Assembly (NCBI RefSeq): GCF_019468465.1
Contig: NZ_CP080519.1
Location: forward strand, 4,789,001 to 4,853,000
Length of the DNA: 64,000 nucleotides
Direction of reading: 5' to 3'
From: Amycolatopsis sp. DSM 110486
GTDB taxonomy: Bacteria; Actinomycetota; Actinomycetes; Mycobacteriales; Pseudonocardiaceae
Shown: positions 767 to 10,880 of the stretch, one piece after another
Position numbering within the stretch: position 1 is the first letter of the stretch
Layout of the letters: each line of letters begins with the position of its first letter
The notes under the pieces: model-generated
The model's database searches: none
Seen by the model: only the letters and a program-made list of their open reading frames with translations
Told to the model about the DNA's origin: nothing
Translations under genes and position numbers: made by a program

Positions 767-2056
767 ATGAGCATGCGCCGCCGCATCCTGATGGCGATCC
801 TGCTGGCCGTGCTCGTGACCGCGGCCGTGCTCGGGATCCCGCTCGGCGTCACGGCCTGGCGGCTGGTGGAGAACCTCAACCGCGAGAGCCTGGCCGAACG
901 CGCGCGGGTGATCGCCGCGACCGTCGACACACAGGTCGCCAACGGCGACGACATCGACATCCAGCAGTTCCGCGTGGGCGTGCCGCACGGCGGGTTCCTG
1001 GAGGTCCGCGGCGACGGGCTGATCGAGAAGCACCTCGGCGTGAACCCCGGGCCCGACCCGGTCGTGGAGATCGTGCCGACGGCACGCCACGGTGAGGTGG
1101 TCCTGTCGATCCCCAGGGGTCCCGTCCGCACGAAGCAGACGCAGGTGACGCTGCTCGTGGTGCTGCTGGTGGTGCTGTCCGTCGGCACCGGCGCGGTGGT
1201 GGCGACGGTGACCGCGCGCCGGCTGGCGAAACCGTTGCGGCACGTCGCGGACCGCGCGTCGCGCCTCGGCGGCGGTGACTTCCGGCCCGACCCGGGCCGC
1301 TACCGCGTGGCCGAGCTGGACATGGTCGCGGAGGCGCTGGACACGTCGGCCTCGGCGCTGGCGCAGCTCGTGCAGCGGGAGCGGCAGCTCGTCGGCGACG
1401 TCTCGCACCAGCTGCGCAGCCGGCTCACCGCGTTGCAGCTGCGGCTGGAACCGCTGACGGTGCACGGCGACCCCGACGTCGTCGAGGAGTCGCGGGCCGC
1501 GCAGGAGCAGGCCGACCGCCTGGCCGAAGCCCTCGACGAGCTGCTCGCCGCCGCCCGCGCGGCTCGCGAGGTGGACGCCGAGCCCGTCGACCTGCACGCG
1601 ACGCTGCCGCAAGTCGCGGAGGAGTGGCGCCAGCTGCTGCGCGTCGAGGGCCGCAACCTGCGCCTGAAGATCGCCGACGGCCTCATGGCCCGCGCGACCC
1701 CCGGCCGCCTGCGCGAGGTCATCGGAGTCCTACTGGACAACGCTCTGCGCCACGGTGCCGGCACCGTCACTCTCGCCGCGCGCCGTGGCGAGTCCGACGC
1801 CACCGTCGTCATCGAGGTCGGCGACACCGGCTCCGGCGTGCCCGACGAGCTCGCCCCGCACATCTTCGAACGCGGCTTCTCCGGCGGTGGCTCCACCGGT
1901 GTCGGCCTCGCCCTGGCCCGCGCCCTCGTCGAAGCCGACGGCGGCCGCCTCGAACTGTCGAACAAGCGTCCGGCGATCTTCAGCCTGTTCCTGAAGGTGC
2001 CCCGCCCGGACGATGTCGGCGAGGTCCGCTGGCCGGCGGAGCCGGTGCCGCGCTAG
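767..2056 (+). CDS. Two-component sensor histidine kinase
   Basis: Membrane kinase of 429 aa that should phosphorylate the regulator encoded just upstream. It has an N-terminal membrane segment (about 9-31), a short extracytoplasmic loop of about 95 residues and a second membrane segment (about 128-150). A HAMP linker follows, then a dimerisation domain with phospho-acceptor His214 in DVSHQLRSRL. The ATPase domain has the N box around Asn325 (LLDNALRHG), the DTGSGVP G1 box and GVGLALARALVE. The sensor loop is too small for a recognised ligand domain. The stop codon shares CTAG with the convergent gene downstream. Confidence 0.94.
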   Translation: MSMRRRILMAILLAVLVTAAVLGIPLGVTAWRLVENLNRESLAERARVIAATVDTQVANGDDIDIQQFRVGVPHGGFLEVRGDGLIEKHLGVNPGPDPVVEIVPTARHGEVVLSIPRGPVRTKQTQVTLLVVLLVVLSVGTGAVVATVTARRLAKPLRHVADRASRLGGGDFRPDPGRYRVAELDMVAEALDTSASALAQLVQRERQLVGDVSHQLRSRLTALQLRLEPLTVHGDPDVVEESRAAQEQADRLAEALDELLAAARAAREVDAEPVDLHATLPQVAEEWRQLLRVEGRNLRLKIADGLMARATPGRLREVIGVLLDNALRHGAGTVTLAARRGESDATVVIEVGDTGSGVPDELAPHIFERGFSGGGSTGVGLALARALVEADGGRLELSNKRPAIFSLFLKVPRPDDVGEVRWPAEPVPR

Positions 2057-4393: not shown

Positions 4394-4897
4394 TCAGGCG
4401 GCCTTCCTGCCGGGAATGTCCGCATCGTCCGATGACCTGATCGCACGCAGGCGGGCACCCTCCGTGGGGAACACCCACTTCTTGAACGCCCACCAGCGGA
4501 ACAGCGTGCCCAGCAGCGTGCCGATGATCATGCCGCTCACGAAGTCGGCGACTTCCTGCCCGAGCAGCGTGAGGTGCGGCTGCTGCAGGTCGAGCACGTA
4601 GCGCGAGATCCACTGCGGCAACGCGTTGAGCCCCAGCGCGATGCCGCTGATGAGGAAGAACAGCGCGGCCTCGTGCGTGCGCTCGCGGCCGCCGCGCGTG
4701 CGGAACGACCACTCGCGGTTGGCGACGTAGGAGAAGATCGTGGCGATCAGCACGCCGATGATGAGCGCCGTGACCGGGTTTTGCCGGAGCACGGTGAACT
4801 TCAGGACGTAGGTGATCGCCGTGGTGATCAGGAAGCTGATCCCGCCGACCACGGCGAACCGCAGCAGTTCGCGGTGCTTCGCCAGGAACCCTCGCAC
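4394..4897 (-). CDS. GtrA-family membrane protein (copy 1)
   Basis: 167 aa, four membrane helices, same fold as its downstream neighbour. The family core is RFAVVGGISFLITTAITY (about 13-30), with the shared NREWSFRTRGGRERTHEAAL loop and a C-terminal WWAFKKWVFP. It begins at GTG 4897, 10 bases after the stop of the membrane sigma factor, and lies in the same minus-strand run. A role in translocating lipid-linked sugars is inferred from the family. The actual substrate is unknown. The GT87 genes at 8.3-10.9 kb are nearby candidates for users of such lipid-linked sugars. Confidence 0.88.
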   Translation of the reverse strand: MRGFLAKHRELLRFAVVGGISFLITTAITYVLKFTVLRQNPVTALIIGVLIATIFSYVANREWSFRTRGGRERTHEAALFFLISGIALGLNALPQWISRYVLDLQQPHLTLLGQEVADFVSGMIIGTLLGTLFRWWAFKKWVFPTEGARLRAIRSSDDADIPGRKAA

Positions 4898-4907
4898 CTG
4901 GGCGACG

Positions 4908-7160
4908 CTACCCCCTCAGCCAGTCGAAAAAGCCGCGGGGCTCGATCGACGGCGGGGTCTCGCCGGGTTTGCCGGAGTTGCCGCTTCCCGGGGTCGGGGG
5001 CGCGCTCGTGGTGGTCGACGGCGTGCTCGGCGGGGTGGTGGTGACCGGGTCCGTCGGCTTCGCCGGAGGGGTGCTCGACGGCGTCGGCTTCCGGTGCGGC
5101 GGCTTCTTCGACGAGCTGGACGATTCGGAGGTCTCCGGGGTCGTCGTCGAGGAAGTAGACGGCGTCGGCGGGACTCCGGTCGTCGGGTACGGCACGTCGC
5201 AGATCTCGAGCCAGCAGCCGAACGACACCTTGGCCTGCTGCGCCGCCTTGCCGAGTGTCGCGTTCACGGTCACGGCCGCGTTGTGCGCCGGGCGGCCCTT
5301 GAGCCGCACCCACAGGTTCACGTGCTGGCCGGGTGCGAGCGCACCGCGCGTGGTGCACGTGGCGCCCGTGTCCGTGGAGTGGCACGGGAAGCCGCTGAGG
5401 CTCCACGACTGGTACAGCGCGTGGTCGAACGTGACCGTGACCGGCTTCGTGGTGTCACCGGTGTTGCGGACGCGGACGTAGACGAGCGGGTTGCGCGTCC
5501 ACGGGAACGCCGAGAGCCCGTCGGTGTCGGCCTGCAGCGCGAGCAGGTCGGGCGGGGACTTCACGGTGACCTTCACGCTCACGGCGACCTTGATCGTCGC
5601 GCCCGCCGTGACCGAACCCGTGACGGTGCCGCCCTGCGCGGAGTCGTCGGCCTGCAGACGGAACGTGAGCACGGCCGTCTGGCCGGGCTGCAGGCCGGAG
5701 CCCGTTTTGCACGTCACGGTGCCGGTGCCGCCGGGGCAGTCGACGCTCAGCTGGGTCGTCGCCGGCGTTTCGGCCTGGCGCGAGAAGCCGCTCACGGCAC
5801 CGCCACCGCCACCCGCTGGCACGGCGGACACCCCGGGCGGCAGGTTCAACGCGACCTGCACGGGGTCGGACGGGCTGCCACCGTCGTTGCGGACTGTGAT
5901 CGGCAGGTTCACCGGTCCGGCGCCGGGCTGGAGTTCGAGATCACCGGAAGGAGTGGTTGCCGACATCTTCGCCGCCGCGGGTGTCGCCGGGGGCGGCGGT
6001 GCCGCGGGCGGCGCGGCAGGCGGCTGGACGGGCGGGGGCGCGGGGACCGCGGGCGGCGGCGCCTGCGGCGGTGCGGGCGGGGCCGGGGGCGCGGGAGGCG
6101 CGGGCTTGGCCGGCGGCACCGCGGGCGCGGCGGCAGGCGGCGGGACTTGCGCGGCCACGGGGATCTCCTGCGGCGAGCCGGCCGCGGCCAGCGCGACCGC
6201 CACCGTCGCCACGATGGCGGCGCCCGAAGCCGCGACGCCCGCGAACTGGCGGGGCGCGGAAGCGGCGGCTGCGGCACCGGCCTTGGCACCACCCGCCGCG
6301 GCGGCGCCGGCACCCACGGCGGCACCCGCCGTGGCCGCGCTCGCCTTGGCGGCGCCGATCGTCGCGAGGTAACCCAGCGCGGCGCCGCCCAGCACGATCG
6401 GAGCGATGATCGCGCGCAGGCCGCCGTTCACGTCGGCCAGTTCGGCCGCCAGTCCGCGGCAGTCCTCGCACTCGTCGAGGTGGTTCTCCACTTGGGAGCG
6501 TTCGCGTTTGGACAGCCCGTCGCGCGTCCACGCGCCGAGCCGCTCGGCCGTGGCGTGGCAGCGTTCGGCGGCGGTTTCCTGCAGGTGGACTTGCAGGTAC
6601 GCCTGGCGCAGACCCTCGCGGGCGCGGTAGGCGAGCGCGGACACGCCGTTCGCGGTCAGGCCCAGCAGCGGCGCGACCTCGGCCGGGCTCTGCTGCTCGA
6701 TCTCGGTGTGCCAGAGCACGGCCTGCCAGCGTTCCGGCAGCCGCGCGAACGCTTTCGCTGCCAGCGTGCGCTCGAGCCCGGCCACGGCGGTGTCGGAAAA
6801 CGGCACGGTGAGCGCCTCGCCGATGGCCCCGCCGACGTCGCTCATGTCCTCGTTGAGGTCGACGCGGCGGTCGCGGCGGGTCTTGTCGTACGCGGTGTGG
6901 CGCAGGGCGGTGAGGAGGTAGGCGCGGAACGCGGTGTCCGGACCTTTGCCGCCGCGCAGCGTCTCGAGGACCTTCGAGAAGGCTTCGGACACCAGGTCGT
7001 CGGCCTCGGAGCTCGAACGCGCGAGCTGGCGGGCGAGGTTGTGGGCGGCGCGGCTGTGGCGTTCGTAAAGGGGCCCGTAGCTGGCGATGTTCCCTGAGCG
7101 GACCTCGGCGATCAGCTCGGTGTCGCTCTTACCGGACAGATCGGCGGGAACGGTGGACAC
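4908..7160 (-). CDS. ECF-like sigma factor fused to zinc finger, membrane segment and extracytoplasmic domains
   Basis: 750 aa, several times the usual length of an ECF sigma factor. Residues about 1-190 are sigma region 2 (SSEADDLVSEAFSKVLETL) and region 4 (LPERWQAVLWHTEIEQQSP, then LGLTANGVSALAYRAREGL). Next is an anti-sigma-like zinc motif HLDECEDC (HX3CX2C). Hydrophobic Ala/Gly-rich segments follow (about 248-268 and 305-330), then a Pro-rich linker. Two beta-sandwich, DUF11-like domains with paired cysteines come next, and a Ser/Thr/Pro-rich tail ending GFFDWLRG. I infer a self-inhibited, membrane-tethered sigma factor whose release may need proteolysis. GTG 7160 has GAAGGAG 5 bases upstream. 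Confidence 0.85.
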   Translation of the reverse strand: MSTVPADLSGKSDTELIAEVRSGNIASYGPLYERHSRAAHNLARQLARSSSEADDLVSEAFSKVLETLRGGKGPDTAFRAYLLTALRHTAYDKTRRDRRVDLNEDMSDVGGAIGEALTVPFSDTAVAGLERTLAAKAFARLPERWQAVLWHTEIEQQSPAEVAPLLGLTANGVSALAYRAREGLRQAYLQVHLQETAAERCHATAERLGAWTRDGLSKRERSQVENHLDECEDCRGLAAELADVNGGLRAIIAPIVLGGAALGYLATIGAAKASAATAGAAVGAGAAAAGGAKAGAAAAASAPRQFAGVAASGAAIVATVAVALAAAGSPQEIPVAAQVPPPAAAPAVPPAKPAPPAPPAPPAPPQAPPPAVPAPPPVQPPAAPPAAPPPPATPAAAKMSATTPSGDLELQPGAGPVNLPITVRNDGGSPSDPVQVALNLPPGVSAVPAGGGGGAVSGFSRQAETPATTQLSVDCPGGTGTVTCKTGSGLQPGQTAVLTFRLQADDSAQGGTVTGSVTAGATIKVAVSVKVTVKSPPDLLALQADTDGLSAFPWTRNPLVYVRVRNTGDTTKPVTVTFDHALYQSWSLSGFPCHSTDTGATCTTRGALAPGQHVNLWVRLKGRPAHNAAVTVNATLGKAAQQAKVSFGCWLEICDVPYPTTGVPPTPSTSSTTTPETSESSSSSKKPPHRKPTPSSTPPAKPTDPVTTTPPSTPSTTTSAPPTPGSGNSGKPGETPPSIEPRGFFDWLRG

Positions 7161-7426
7161 GAGGCTCCTTCATCTGGCGCACGCGGCCTGGCCAGCCACG
7201 ATCTACCTCTGTAACGCGAGCACAAGTGTGACGGACGCGGCGATACGCGTCACCTCGTGGTCGGTGTGTTGACTCCGTCGGCGCAACAAGTTCACCCGGG
7301 TCTGGGGTGTGTCGCTGCGCCCGTCCTGCGAAAAAGACCCCGGAACGCCGTCACGCGGACGGCGGTGTCACGTCCCCTGAGTGGAGCAGGACAAGATCGA
7401 CATCGACCGGGAAGGAGCGGTGGCCA
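7161..7426. other. Divergent promoter region
   Basis: 266 bases between the divergently transcribed membrane sigma factor and the GGDEF-like gene. Only the two ribosome-binding sites are clear: GAAGGAG for the minus gene, and GAAGGAG at 7411-7417 for the plus gene. No convincing -35/-10 pair or operator was recognised. Confidence 0.4.
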
Positions 7427-8269
7427 GTGGATGTACCGGCGACCGGGGCACTGTCCGGTCCCGCCGGCGAGCAGGAGTCCCGCGCCCGGTTCGACCGGGA
7501 TCGGAACCTGCGCGCGCTGCGGGCCAGATGGCGCACCGCCAGTCTCGCCGCGGGGTGGCGCTTCCCGAGCGACTGGGCACTGCCCGAAGTGGACGCCGTG
7601 TGCGCCGCCGTGGTCCGCCACGGCGCGACGGGCGCGGAGACGGCGCTGGCCGGCCTCGGTCGAGCCCGGGCCGCCGCGGGCGCGAACCTCGCGGAGACGC
7701 TGTCCGACCTGGCCGCGCTGCACGCGGTGCTCGCCGACCCGGACGCGGTCGACGGCTTTGTCTCACCGGACGTCGACGCGACACCGGCGCGGTTACTGCG
7801 CGTGACCGCGCTGGCGTGGGCGGACGTGGCGACGGATCAGCTCGTGCACACCGAGGTGACCGATCCGTTGACCGGGTTGCCTTCTGCCGCGTACCTGCGG
7901 ACGCGGCTGGCGGAGGTCTACCGGGCGAGTGCGGCCGACGAGCACGTGCTGCTGGTGGTGGCGATGGACCTGACCGCGGTGTCCGGCTGGCCCCGGCTGA
8001 CGGGGATGATCTTGGTGGCCGACGCGATGCGCGCGGTCTTCGACACCGGCGAGAGCCACGCGACGTTGGGGCCGTCGGTGGTCGCGGTGCTGTGCCGCCG
8101 GGACGGCCGGCTGGCTTCGCGGGGAGTGGCTTTGCGCCGGGCCCTGAACGACCGGCTGTCGGTCGACGCGCAGCTTCGGGAGGTCAACCGGCCGCGCGTC
8201 TCGGCGGTCCGCCTGCCTGCTTCGCACGACCGTGCGTGCGACTTGCTGGCGGACCTCGCCCGGGGCTGA
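7427..8269 (+). CDS. Degenerate GGDEF-domain protein
   Basis: 280 aa, cytoplasmic. The C-terminal part (about 133-280) begins with DPLTGLPSAAYLRTRL, the signature opening of diguanylate cyclase domains, but the GG(D/E)EF active-site loop is absent. The region where it should lie reads VVAVLCRRDGRL. Cyclic-di-GMP synthesis is therefore unlikely, and a nucleotide-binding or structural role is possible. The N-terminal half is helical and unassigned. GTG 7427 is preceded by GAAGGAG at 9 bases spacing. An open frame upstream of it lacks plausible sequence. Confidence 0.75.
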   Translation: MDVPATGALSGPAGEQESRARFDRDRNLRALRARWRTASLAAGWRFPSDWALPEVDAVCAAVVRHGATGAETALAGLGRARAAAGANLAETLSDLAALHAVLADPDAVDGFVSPDVDATPARLLRVTALAWADVATDQLVHTEVTDPLTGLPSAAYLRTRLAEVYRASAADEHVLLVVAMDLTAVSGWPRLTGMILVADAMRAVFDTGESHATLGPSVVAVLCRRDGRLASRGVALRRALNDRLSVDAQLREVNRPRVSAVRLPASHDRACDLLADLARG

Positions 8270-8326: not shown

Positions 8327-9742
8327 GTGGTGACCAGGACCGTACCCTCCGCCGTCGACGGCGAAGTTCCGGCGAGCGCTGCCCAGCCTCGTCTGGCCCT
8401 GCGCAAGTCACTCGCCAGACTGTCGATGCGGCCGCGGTCGATCCTGATCTTGTCGGTGATCCCGCTGGTCGCGATCGGTGTCGGGATCTGGGGCTGGACG
8501 CACGAGTGGGGGCTGGGGGTCGACAGCGCGGTCTACCGCGGCGGCGCGCTCACGCTGCTGCACGGAGACTCGCTCTACGACACCAACACCCTGTCCACCG
8601 AACCGTGGTGGGCGCTGCTGCCGTTCACGTACCCGCCGACGGCCGCGTTGTTCTTCGTGCCGCTGGCGCTCGTGCCGACGCAGGTGGCGTGGGGGTTCCT
8701 GACGGCCGTCTCGCTGGGCGCGCTCGCGCTGTCCGTGCGGATCTCGATCGGCGCGCTGCCGAGGCCGGAGGAGGACGGGCCGCGGTGGTGGGCCTCGCCC
8801 GCGCGGTCGACGATCGTGTTCTTCGTGGTCTTCCTCGGCCTGGAACCGGTGTGGCGCACGATCTTCCTGGGTCAGATCAACCTGATCCTGATGGCCATGA
8901 TCCTGCTGGACATGCTCGTGCTCGGCGCGCGCGGCAGCCGGTGGGGCGGCGTGCTGGTGGGCGTCGCGGCGGCGATCAAGCTCACGCCGCTGGTGTTCCT
9001 TGGCCATTTGTTCATCACCGGCCGCCGCAAGGACGCATTGCGCGGGCTGGCGACGTTCGTGGTGCTGCAGGGCCTGATGTTCCTGATCAACTCCCACGAC
9101 GCGTGGCGCTACTGGACCGCGACGCTGCCCGACACCGGCCGCATCGGGCCCGTGCACTGGGCTGGCAACCAGTCGCTCAACGCGCTGATGAACCGCGCCA
9201 CCGACCTCGCGCCGTGGGCGTCGAAGGCGGCGATGGGCATCGGGCTGCTGCTGGCGATCCCGGCGCTGTGGCTGCTGATCCGCTTCCACCGCAAGGGCCA
9301 GGCGCTGGCCGCACTGCTCGTCACGGCGTTCTGGACGCTGCTGATGTCGCCGATCTCGTGGTCGCACCACTGGGTGTGGGTGGCGCCGCTGATCGTGCTG
9401 CTCGTGTCGCGCCTGCCGAAGACGACGCCCGCCACGGCGTGGAAACGCTGGCTGGGCACGGGGCTGGTGGCGTTCGTGTTCGTCAGCTGCGTGCTGCTGA
9501 TCCTGCCGAACGGCCGCAACGTCGAGCTGCACTGGAAGGTGTGGCAGAACGTCCTCGGTGACGCGTACATCCTGATGCCGGTGGTGCTGGGGGTTGCCTT
9601 GATCCTGCGGTGGGGGCTGCAGCGGCGGGCGCGTAATCGCGGTTCGGGCCCAGGCCCGGATTCGGGGCCGGATTCCGGTTCTGGATCGGGTTCGGGCTCA
9701 GGGGAGGCCGCGGACCGTGCCGACGCCACGCCGGCTCACTGA
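8327..9742 (+). CDS. GT87-type polyprenol-phosphate-mannose-dependent glycosyltransferase
   Basis: 471 aa integral membrane protein with about ten hydrophobic helices, of the DUF2029/GT87 family that includes mycobacterial alpha-1,2-mannosyltransferases such as PimE. Diagnostic features are the early VDSAVYRGGALTLLHG loop with its acidic residue, YPPTAALFFVPLA, LGQINLILM and SWSHHWVW. GT87 enzymes use polyprenyl-phosphate sugars on the outer face of the membrane. The C terminus is a low-complexity Gly/Pro/Asp/Ser tail. The last 26 bases overlap the next paralogous gene. Sugar and acceptor cannot be read from sequence. Confidence 0.88.
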   Translation: MVTRTVPSAVDGEVPASAAQPRLALRKSLARLSMRPRSILILSVIPLVAIGVGIWGWTHEWGLGVDSAVYRGGALTLLHGDSLYDTNTLSTEPWWALLPFTYPPTAALFFVPLALVPTQVAWGFLTAVSLGALALSVRISIGALPRPEEDGPRWWASPARSTIVFFVVFLGLEPVWRTIFLGQINLILMAMILLDMLVLGARGSRWGGVLVGVAAAIKLTPLVFLGHLFITGRRKDALRGLATFVVLQGLMFLINSHDAWRYWTATLPDTGRIGPVHWAGNQSLNALMNRATDLAPWASKAAMGIGLLLAIPALWLLIRFHRKGQALAALLVTAFWTLLMSPISWSHHWVWVAPLIVLLVSRLPKTTPATAWKRWLGTGLVAFVFVSCVLLILPNGRNVELHWKVWQNVLGDAYILMPVVLGVALILRWGLQRRARNRGSGPGPDSGPDSGSGSGSGSGEAADRADATPAH

Positions 9743-10880
9743 CCCGCGCCTGCTGGCGCTGCCGTTCCTCGCACTCGTCCTCGGAGCCGCCGTCTGGCTC
9801 ACCCACCGGCACCTCGGCGCCGACAGCGCCGTCTACCGCGGCGGCGCGCTGACCCTGCTCAAAGGCGAGCCGCTCTACACCACCGGCGATCTCACGACCC
9901 TGCCCGACTGGGTCCGGCTGCCGTTCACCTACACCCCCGCCGCGGCCGCGCTGTTCCTCCCGCTCGCCCTCGTGCCGGCCGGGCTGGTGTGGGGCGTGGT
10001 GACGGTGTTGTCGGTGGTGTCACTGACCGTGGTGATCGCGGTCGTCGCGCGCCCCTCGCGCTGGTGGCTCCTCGGCGGCACCGCGTTGGCCCTGGCGCTG
10101 GAACCGGTGTGGAAAACGCTGTTCCTGGGCCAGATCAACCTGATCCTGATGGCGTTCGTGGTCGTCGACGTCCTGGTGCTTTCGCTGCGCGGCTCACGCC
10201 GGGCGGGCATGCTGGTCGGCGTCGCCGCGGCCATCAAGCTGACGCCCCTGATCTTCGTGCCGCACCTGTTCTTCACCGGCCGCTGGAAAGACGGCCTGCG
10301 CGCACTGGCCACCTTCGTCGGCCTCGAGGCCGTCATGTTCGCCGTCATCCCGCACGACGCGTGGTTCTTCTGGACGAAGTCCGCCACCGACCCCAGCCGC
10401 GTCGGCTCGGTCACGTGGATCTTCAACCAGTCGCTCAACGGCCTCGTCAACCGCGCCTCCGCCCTCGCCCCGTGGTCGCTCACGGTGGCCGTCGCCGTCG
10501 GCGCGGTCCTCGCCGTGCCCGCCGTGTGGCTCGTGATCCGGCTGCACCGCAGGGGCGAACCGAAGGCCGCCCTGCTGGTGACGGCGTTTTACGGACTGCT
10601 GCTTTCGCCCGTTTCCTGGTCGCACCACTGGGTGTGGGCCGTGCCGTTGATCGCCCTGCTCGTCACCACGGGTCGCCGCTGGTGGGCCCTCGCGGCCACC
10701 GCCCTGTTCGCCTCGGAAGTCGTCATGCTCGTCCCGAACGGCGCCGACGTCGAGTTCACGTGGGGCCTGGGCTGGTCGATCCTCGGCAACGCCTACGTCG
10801 TCGCGGCGGCCTGCACGATCGTCGGCCTGGCGGTGCGCGAGCTCCGGCTGAGCTCTCCCGTGGCGAGGCTGGCGAAATAG
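9717..10880 (+). CDS. GT87-type membrane glycosyltransferase (paralogue)
   Basis: 387 aa, multi-pass membrane enzyme sharing almost every motif with its upstream neighbour: ADSAVYRGGALTLLKG, FLGQINLILM, AAIKLTPLIF and SWSHHWVW. It lacks the low-complexity tail. It starts at GTG 9717 inside the upstream gene, so the two are translationally coupled. Adjacent duplication followed by divergence suggests two successive or alternative mannosyl transfers. A sugar-phosphate donor (polyprenol-linked) is known for the family. The product here is inferred only to be an envelope glycolipid or glycan. Confidence 0.88.
   Translation: MPTPRRLTDPRLLALPFLALVLGAAVWLTHRHLGADSAVYRGGALTLLKGEPLYTTGDLTTLPDWVRLPFTYTPAAAALFLPLALVPAGLVWGVVTVLSVVSLTVVIAVVARPSRWWLLGGTALALALEPVWKTLFLGQINLILMAFVVVDVLVLSLRGSRRAGMLVGVAAAIKLTPLIFVPHLFFTGRWKDGLRALATFVGLEAVMFAVIPHDAWFFWTKSATDPSRVGSVTWIFNQSLNGLVNRASALAPWSLTVAVAVGAVLAVPAVWLVIRLHRRGEPKAALLVTAFYGLLLSPVSWSHHWVWAVPLIALLVTTGRRWWALAATALFASEVVMLVPNGADVEFTWGLGWSILGNAYVVAAACTIVGLAVRELRLSSPVARLAK

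Follow-up and report, generated by a model that had tools for sequence, protein, structure and literature searches.

Fused ECF/anti-sigma proteins are described as widespread in actinobacteria, and three actinobacterial groups, ECF48, ECF52 and ECF53, are characterized as ECF sigma factors continued by a zinc finger, one to two transmembrane (TM) helices and an extension, for which proteolytic activation is expected (PMC8999054). SCO4117 is named there as the best understood of these proteins, its control being still called unclear (PMC8999054). In this ECF52 representative a proline-rich region is accompanied by a carbohydrate-binding module, and according to the same work S. coelicolor carrying the SCO4117 sigma domain alone still shows delayed development, less so than the knockout, together with raised SCO4117 expression (PMC5826349). 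Zinc binding by class I anti-sigma domains was proposed to be possibly structural rather than sensory (PMC7406223). A further mode of sigma factor control is reported for RmdB: its GGDEF domain is a binding partner of sigma WhiG and acts against the anti-sigma factor RsiG, and the GGDEF motif itself is dispensable (PMC13232838).

Here, we address a fused ECF protein encoded in the 11-Mb genome (two contigs) of Amycolatopsis sp. DSM 110486, namely in a stretch of 64,000 nucleotides (NZ_CP080519.1, positions 4,789,001 to 4,853,000) that was analysed as a whole and is called the window below. With a probability of roughly 0.55, we read it as an ECF sigma factor of the broad ECF48/52/53 kind, tethered to the membrane and self-inhibited, that constitutes its own lineage, would sense the envelope, be released by proteolysis and be served by a GGDEF-like partner in the cytosol. 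The layout and proteolytic release are already known or proposed for ECF48/52/53; the new element is the conserved degenerate-GGDEF neighbour.

Domain organization of the sigma protein

A sequence-only reading of this DNA had placed sigma regions 2 and 4, a zinc finger and hydrophobic segments in one 750-residue chain, and Pfam, NCBIfam and alignment all agree with it. The gene (ORF call and translation) starts with GTG preceded by AGGAG, and the GGA at this position is kept in at least 90% of 81 aligned sigma-gene upstream regions. Sigma regions 2 and 4, zf-HC2, two hydrophobic segments and a Pro/Ala linker follow each other in a single chain, the C-terminal half of which is built of two beta-sandwich domains, a Pro/Thr/Ser tail and a hydrophobic/aromatic cap:

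4908..7160, minus strand: CDS, ECF sigma factor fused to zinc-finger, membrane and ectodomain parts, 750 aa
6864..7070, minus strand: sigma region 2 (residues 31-99), Pfam PF04542
6615..6755, minus strand: sigma region 4 (residues 136-182), Pfam PF08281 under cut-off, NCBIfam sigma70-ECF at 31-187
6456..6560, minus strand: zf-HC2 anti-sigma-like zinc finger (residues 201-235), Pfam, three Cys in 121/121 rows
6351..6419, minus strand: hydrophobic segment 1 (about residues 248-270), membrane-associated or spanning, conserved P254/L257/G258/Y264
6177..6245, minus strand: hydrophobic segment 2 (about residues 306-328), after the invariant PRQ 303-305, most likely a spanning helix
5976..6167, minus strand: Ala/Pro-rich linker (residues 332-395), by composition
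5556..5969, minus strand: putative ectodomain 1 (residues 398-535), beta-sandwich, Cys475/Cys484, AlphaFold2 and alignment
5211..5549, minus strand: putative ectodomain 2 (residues 538-650), beta-sandwich, Cys593/Cys602, with Cys649/Cys654 at its end
4941..5183, minus strand: Pro/Thr/Ser-rich tail (residues 660-740), by composition
4911..4943, minus strand: hydrophobic/aromatic C-terminal cap (residues 740-750), alignment and composition

Membership in the ECF family follows from regions 2 and 4: Sigma70_r2 is matched at residues 31-99 with E 2.7e-13, Sigma70_r4_2 at 136-182 with E 1.5e-4 (under Pfam's cut-off), and NCBIfam sigma70-ECF (TIGR02937) covers residues 31-187 with E 2.2e-19. In total, 86 Sigma70_r2 matches are found in the genome of the window, where L152 and L153 are two further relatives of its sigma and zinc-finger part. 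The zf-HC2 match (residues 201-235, E 2.7e-8) contains the anticipated HX3CX2C motif as H227-C231-C234, which together with the upstream C201 gives the pattern of a fused class I zinc-finger anti-sigma domain; all three Cys are kept in 121/121 aligned proteins. The AlphaFold2 model is weak in this part (pLDDT 60-73, residues 201-250). Here and below, the 121 alignment rows are related proteins and counts over them are not independent.

Search with the sigma protein gave 2994 matches among 7993 scored candidates, and the best 120 of these 2994 range from 665 to 826 aa and each contain zf-HC2 and Sigma70_r2, so that shared length and domain content exclude a chance assembly. The nearest named homologues among the matches listed belong to Amycolatopsis, and the other named genera among the best 120 of 2994 are ones that we take to be Pseudonocardiaceae; at the level of sequence, the architecture is conserved in this family.

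Structure prediction with AlphaFold2, a step that the sequence-only reading had proposed, modelled two beta-sandwich domains with confidence, at about 398-535 and 538-650, apart from a weak loop near 452-463. The claim of two DUF11-like domains in this region is essentially correct: of the 25 proteins in alignment A1, 12 match DUF11 weakly (best E 3.2e-4), and the window protein, itself a member of A1, is not among the 12 and has no Pfam match to DUF11. Conservation of the Cys475/Cys484 pair in 121/121 rows, of Cys593/Cys602 in 120/121 and of Cys649/Cys654 in 110/121 suggests that the domains are probably disulfide-bearing. The tail, recognized earlier as PTS-rich, consists of P, T and S by 72% over residues 660-740. 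The cap, on which, like on the degenerate-GGDEF neighbour, the sequence-only reading was silent, stands out by composition: the last 12 residues average 40% F/W/Y/L/I/V/M versus 4% in the preceding 60 (121 rows), this share exceeds that of every 12-residue segment of those 60 in 115/121 rows, and an aromatic residue lies within the last 12 positions in 111/121. Among 40 relatives from other genomes with inspected ends, most have no cap, and L129, L131 and L140 have hydrophobic/aromatic ends. That the cap is a handle for protease or membrane is a conjecture.

Relation to known fused ECF groups

The sequence-only reading rightly stated that actinobacterial ECFs with fused membrane and zinc domains are known, these being ECF48, ECF52 and ECF53 (PMC8999054). 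Its view of the large ectodomain as unusual did not hold, for these groups carry extensions, and single relatives of the window protein terminate in an NPCBM domain, in Ig and ricin domains or in a DUF3344-like domain. Thus, the outer part of L141 (L141:9103-11808, plus strand; family label f21) consists of consecutive Ig I-set domains and a ricin-type lectin, that of L120 (f29) is DUF3344-like with a weaker DUF3344-like match in L119 (f22), and L136 (f20) has a C-terminal NPCBM (E 2.5e-27).

With SCO4117 the window protein shares the ECF sigma domain, zf-HC2, a hydrophobic segment, a proline-rich linker, a C-terminal domain of external type and the actinobacterial origin (PMC5826349), and, as in ECF52, its ECF domain is continued by a zinc finger, a TM region and a proline-rich extension. 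SCO4117-type relatives, in contrast, end in NPCBM, whereas the window protein has two other beta-sandwiches, the P/T/S tail and the aromatic cap: NPCBM is absent among its Pfam matches (E up to 1), and the 25 proteins of A1, which together match 10 families (E up to 0.1), do not match it either. Neighbours differ as well, since a TetR gene and an NDH2 gene adjoin L147 (f20), unlike the degenerate-GGDEF and GtrA genes of the window. NPCBM occurs in all 120 listed homologues of L147, the named ones being from Streptomyces; by the neighbours of this one locus and these Streptomyces homologues, rather than by the SCO4117 sequence, the f20 clade is taken as the SCO4117 type.

The tree comprised 59 rows, namely the window protein together with 8 of the 80 loci from Pseudonocardiaceae and relatives found in other genomes; the long rows L153 and L156 were left out. 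Six SCO4117-type (f20) rows form their own branch (98/96), eight of ten further f20 matches are far off (100/100), and the remaining two, L192 and L197, sit on a very long branch with a weakly supported place. The window protein does not cluster with the SCO4117 type and groups with Pseudonocardiaceae, which carry the partner (100/99). Assignment to ECF52 was therefore rejected, given the absence of an NPCBM domain and the separate branch of the SCO4117-type clade.

ECF48 and ECF53 likewise combine ECF, fused zinc finger and one to two TM helices with expected proteolysis, their extensions being up to 400 residues versus about 560 in the window protein, a comparison by description only (PMC8999054). 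IutY of Pseudomonas putida (ECF243) also unites sigma and anti-sigma parts in a single chain and undergoes stepwise proteolysis (PMC8999054), differing as a pseudomonad siderophore sensor with other anti-sigma and external parts. Judged by domains and tree, the architecture is of a known kind and the window protein belongs to a distinct lineage, ECF48/ECF53 having been compared by description only.

Gene neighbourhood and the degenerate-GGDEF candidate partner

The sigma gene is surrounded by the following elements:

4394..4897, minus strand: GtrA-family gene, 10 nt past the sigma stop codon
3832..4458, minus strand: second GtrA-family gene
7226..7253, minus strand: promoter-like GTGAC-N16-GTCACAC upstream of the sigma gene
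7427..8269, plus strand: divergently transcribed partner gene, product of 280 aa predicted to be soluble, with a degenerate GGDEF domain at about residues 142-280
8327..9742, plus strand: GT87 mannosyltransferase-like gene after the partner gene
9717..10880, plus strand: second GT87 gene

Both GtrA assignments of the sequence-only reading for the next two minus-strand genes proved correct. Where the flank is long enough, 67 of 69 loci have a GtrA match within 1.5 kb downstream on the strand of the sigma gene; upstream, on the other side of this gene, 66 of 78 loci have a GT87 match. In another set of 40 loci, BLAST found neither. GtrA and GT87 families are linked to polyprenyl-phosphate sugars, and because of this link the status of wall or lipid-linked glycans suggests itself as the signal. 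The promoter-like element is kept with strict spacing in 64/81 sigma-gene upstream regions (67/81 with 16 or 17 nt); in the genome it is matched exactly at a single site, and a regulon is therefore not apparent. At the edge of the window, a histidine kinase gene with a DraK-type N-terminal domain (767-2056, plus strand) lies beside a response regulator (50-757); kinase matches were obtained in 52 of 110 loci searched, 30 of them being short stretches.

The product of 7427-8269 is predicted to adopt the GGDEF fold of diguanylate cyclases and has no GG(D/E)EF active-site motif, its hairpin reading LGPSV. The motif is absent at the hairpin from all 13 partner rows inspected there. A loose GGDEF regex over whole partner sequences matched 3/51 rows, of which P0137 has no motif at the hairpin, and P0187 and P0233 are outside the 13 inspected rows. 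The partner is adjacent and divergent to the sigma gene in 79/80 loci. L060:7001-7927 (Amycolatopsis vastitatis) is the sole locus of 80 with a sigma gene and none of the usual neighbours, and it is perhaps a second copy in that genome.

Applied to 197 genomes from the class Actinomycetes, with up to 12 candidates scored in each, the partner profile (283 positions) gave 58 matches (E 1e-5 or better) that are distributed over 53 genomes. All 21 matches that span at least 160 of the 283 positions adjoin a sigma relative, with 106-508 bp between the matched parts of the two, 14 being divergent and 7 directly upstream on the same strand; they spread over seven family labels (f1, f14, f18, f21, f22, f28 and f29). 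The remaining 37 are shorter (144 positions or fewer) and correspond mainly to the GGDEF core; the contigs of the three best of them (G108, G171 and G110) have no sigma match. In a phylum sample of 246 genomes, the partner appeared at E 1e-12 in two, both within the class. No partner was found by the profile in stretches around f20 and f38 relatives, around six f18 (L123, L130, L133, L134, L144 and L145) and three f14 relatives (L150, L151 and L202), or around L152 and L153 of the same genome. Among the three f28 paralogues L154-L156, a marginal divergent match (L154:8064-8786, minus strand, E 0.33) lies beside the distant sigma relative L154 and may be a diverged partner. Since several related clades have no detected partner, the sigma architecture can apparently work without it; and because rows with and without partner are intermixed in the tree outside the Pseudonocardiaceae branch, losses or missed partners must be assumed. 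In the open-licence PMC literature, we recognized no report of this sigma/GGDEF-like pair and no cytosolic partner noted for fused ECF/anti-sigma proteins.

Topology and alternative explanations

With two membrane spans, one by each hydrophobic segment, the beta-sandwich domains would be cytoplasmic and the protein would be no ectodomain sensor, a consequence that the sequence-only reading did not raise. The two segments it had noted lie at about 248-270 and 306-328, and a 19-residue KD of 1.6 is reached by segment 2 in 121/121 rows and by segment 1 in 118/121; the position of the latter is hydrophobic in most of 49 alignment rows inspected, and one to two TM helices are ascribed to such groups (PMC8999054), which speaks for two spans. 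The loop 269-305, which would then be outside, is nevertheless net basic in 121/121 rows, relative L136 terminates in NPCBM and relative L141 in a ricin-lectin domain, and beyond the zinc finger conserved Cys occur only C-terminal of segment 2, in pairs (121 rows), residues 1-199 being free of Cys in 119/121. The stretch C-terminal of segment 2 is net acidic in 96/121 rows and net basic in 2. Both the conserved Cys pairs and the bias of charges flanking segment 2 make an outside location of the ectodomain probable, and a single span is the likely topology as far as sequence features tell, while the two-span arrangement seems improbable.

Two further objections concern the control of such a tethered sigma factor. 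Its zinc finger could be structural instead of inhibitory, as zinc may be in class I anti-sigma domains (PMC7406223), and the protein would then be constitutively active from the membrane. We consider this very improbable, as the module matches an anti-sigma-type zinc-finger family directly after region 4 and truncation of SCO4117 raises the expression of its own gene (PMC5826349). More weight, though on balance it is unlikely, belongs to the idea that the GGDEF-like neighbour is a mere target gene or cluster member exerting no control of sigma: divergent layout is common for a regulator and its target, the pairing comes from gene context, which by itself is no proof of partner-sigma contact, and several related clades yielded no partner. 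Still, each of the 21 long partner matches adjoins a sigma relative across seven family labels and in two orientations, in contrast to the GtrA/GT87 neighbours, which BLAST did not find in 40 loci.

Proposed mechanism and implications

From the domain order, conservation and gene neighbourhood described above, we infer the following function for the tethered sigma protein and its partner. A self-inhibited, membrane-tethered ECF freed by proteolysis is plausible: the fused zinc-finger module would restrain sigma regions 2 and 4 in an inactive state, the single membrane crossing would be made by segment 2 (306-328), and the linker, two beta-sandwich domains, P/T/S tail and cap would be outside, sensing the state of cell-wall glycopolymers. 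The signal would trigger proteolysis outside and then in membrane and cytoplasm, setting the sigma domain free. The milder delay and raised SCO4117 expression of the S. coelicolor strain with the sigma domain alone offer a precedent for this model, and the delay that persists in that strain counts against it (PMC5826349). Polyprenyl-phosphate-sugar chemistry, to which the GtrA/GT87 neighbours point, may be the monitored process. The cytosolic degenerate-GGDEF protein would be a dedicated partner touching the sigma/zinc-finger part, and it could counter the fused zinc finger as RmdB does RsiG. The motif-dispensable GGDEF domain of RmdB in Streptomyces venezuelae binds sigma and opposes the anti-sigma factor (PMC13232838), a likeness that for the window partner would extend to binding. 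Unlike the small, predicted soluble GGDEF-like partner, RmdB is a membrane phosphodiesterase of GGDEF-EAL type; the anti-sigma factor of sigma WhiG is a protein of its own, whereas the zinc finger of the window protein is fused.

A more elaborate version, which we regard as tentative and rather doubtful, is a two-input switch where an external wall sensor and a catalytically dead cytosolic GGDEF protein jointly control one tethered sigma. The partner would bind sigma or the fused zinc finger, a nucleotide possibly serving as its ligand, and the aromatic cap would be gripped by a PDZ-type protease or attach to the membrane or wall surface.

The conserved degenerate-GGDEF neighbour predicts a testable contact with the sigma protein, and this GGDEF-like companion may be a second control input for a tethered sigma factor. 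If true, the newly reported RmdB-sigma WhiG principle would extend to ECF sigma factors in many families.
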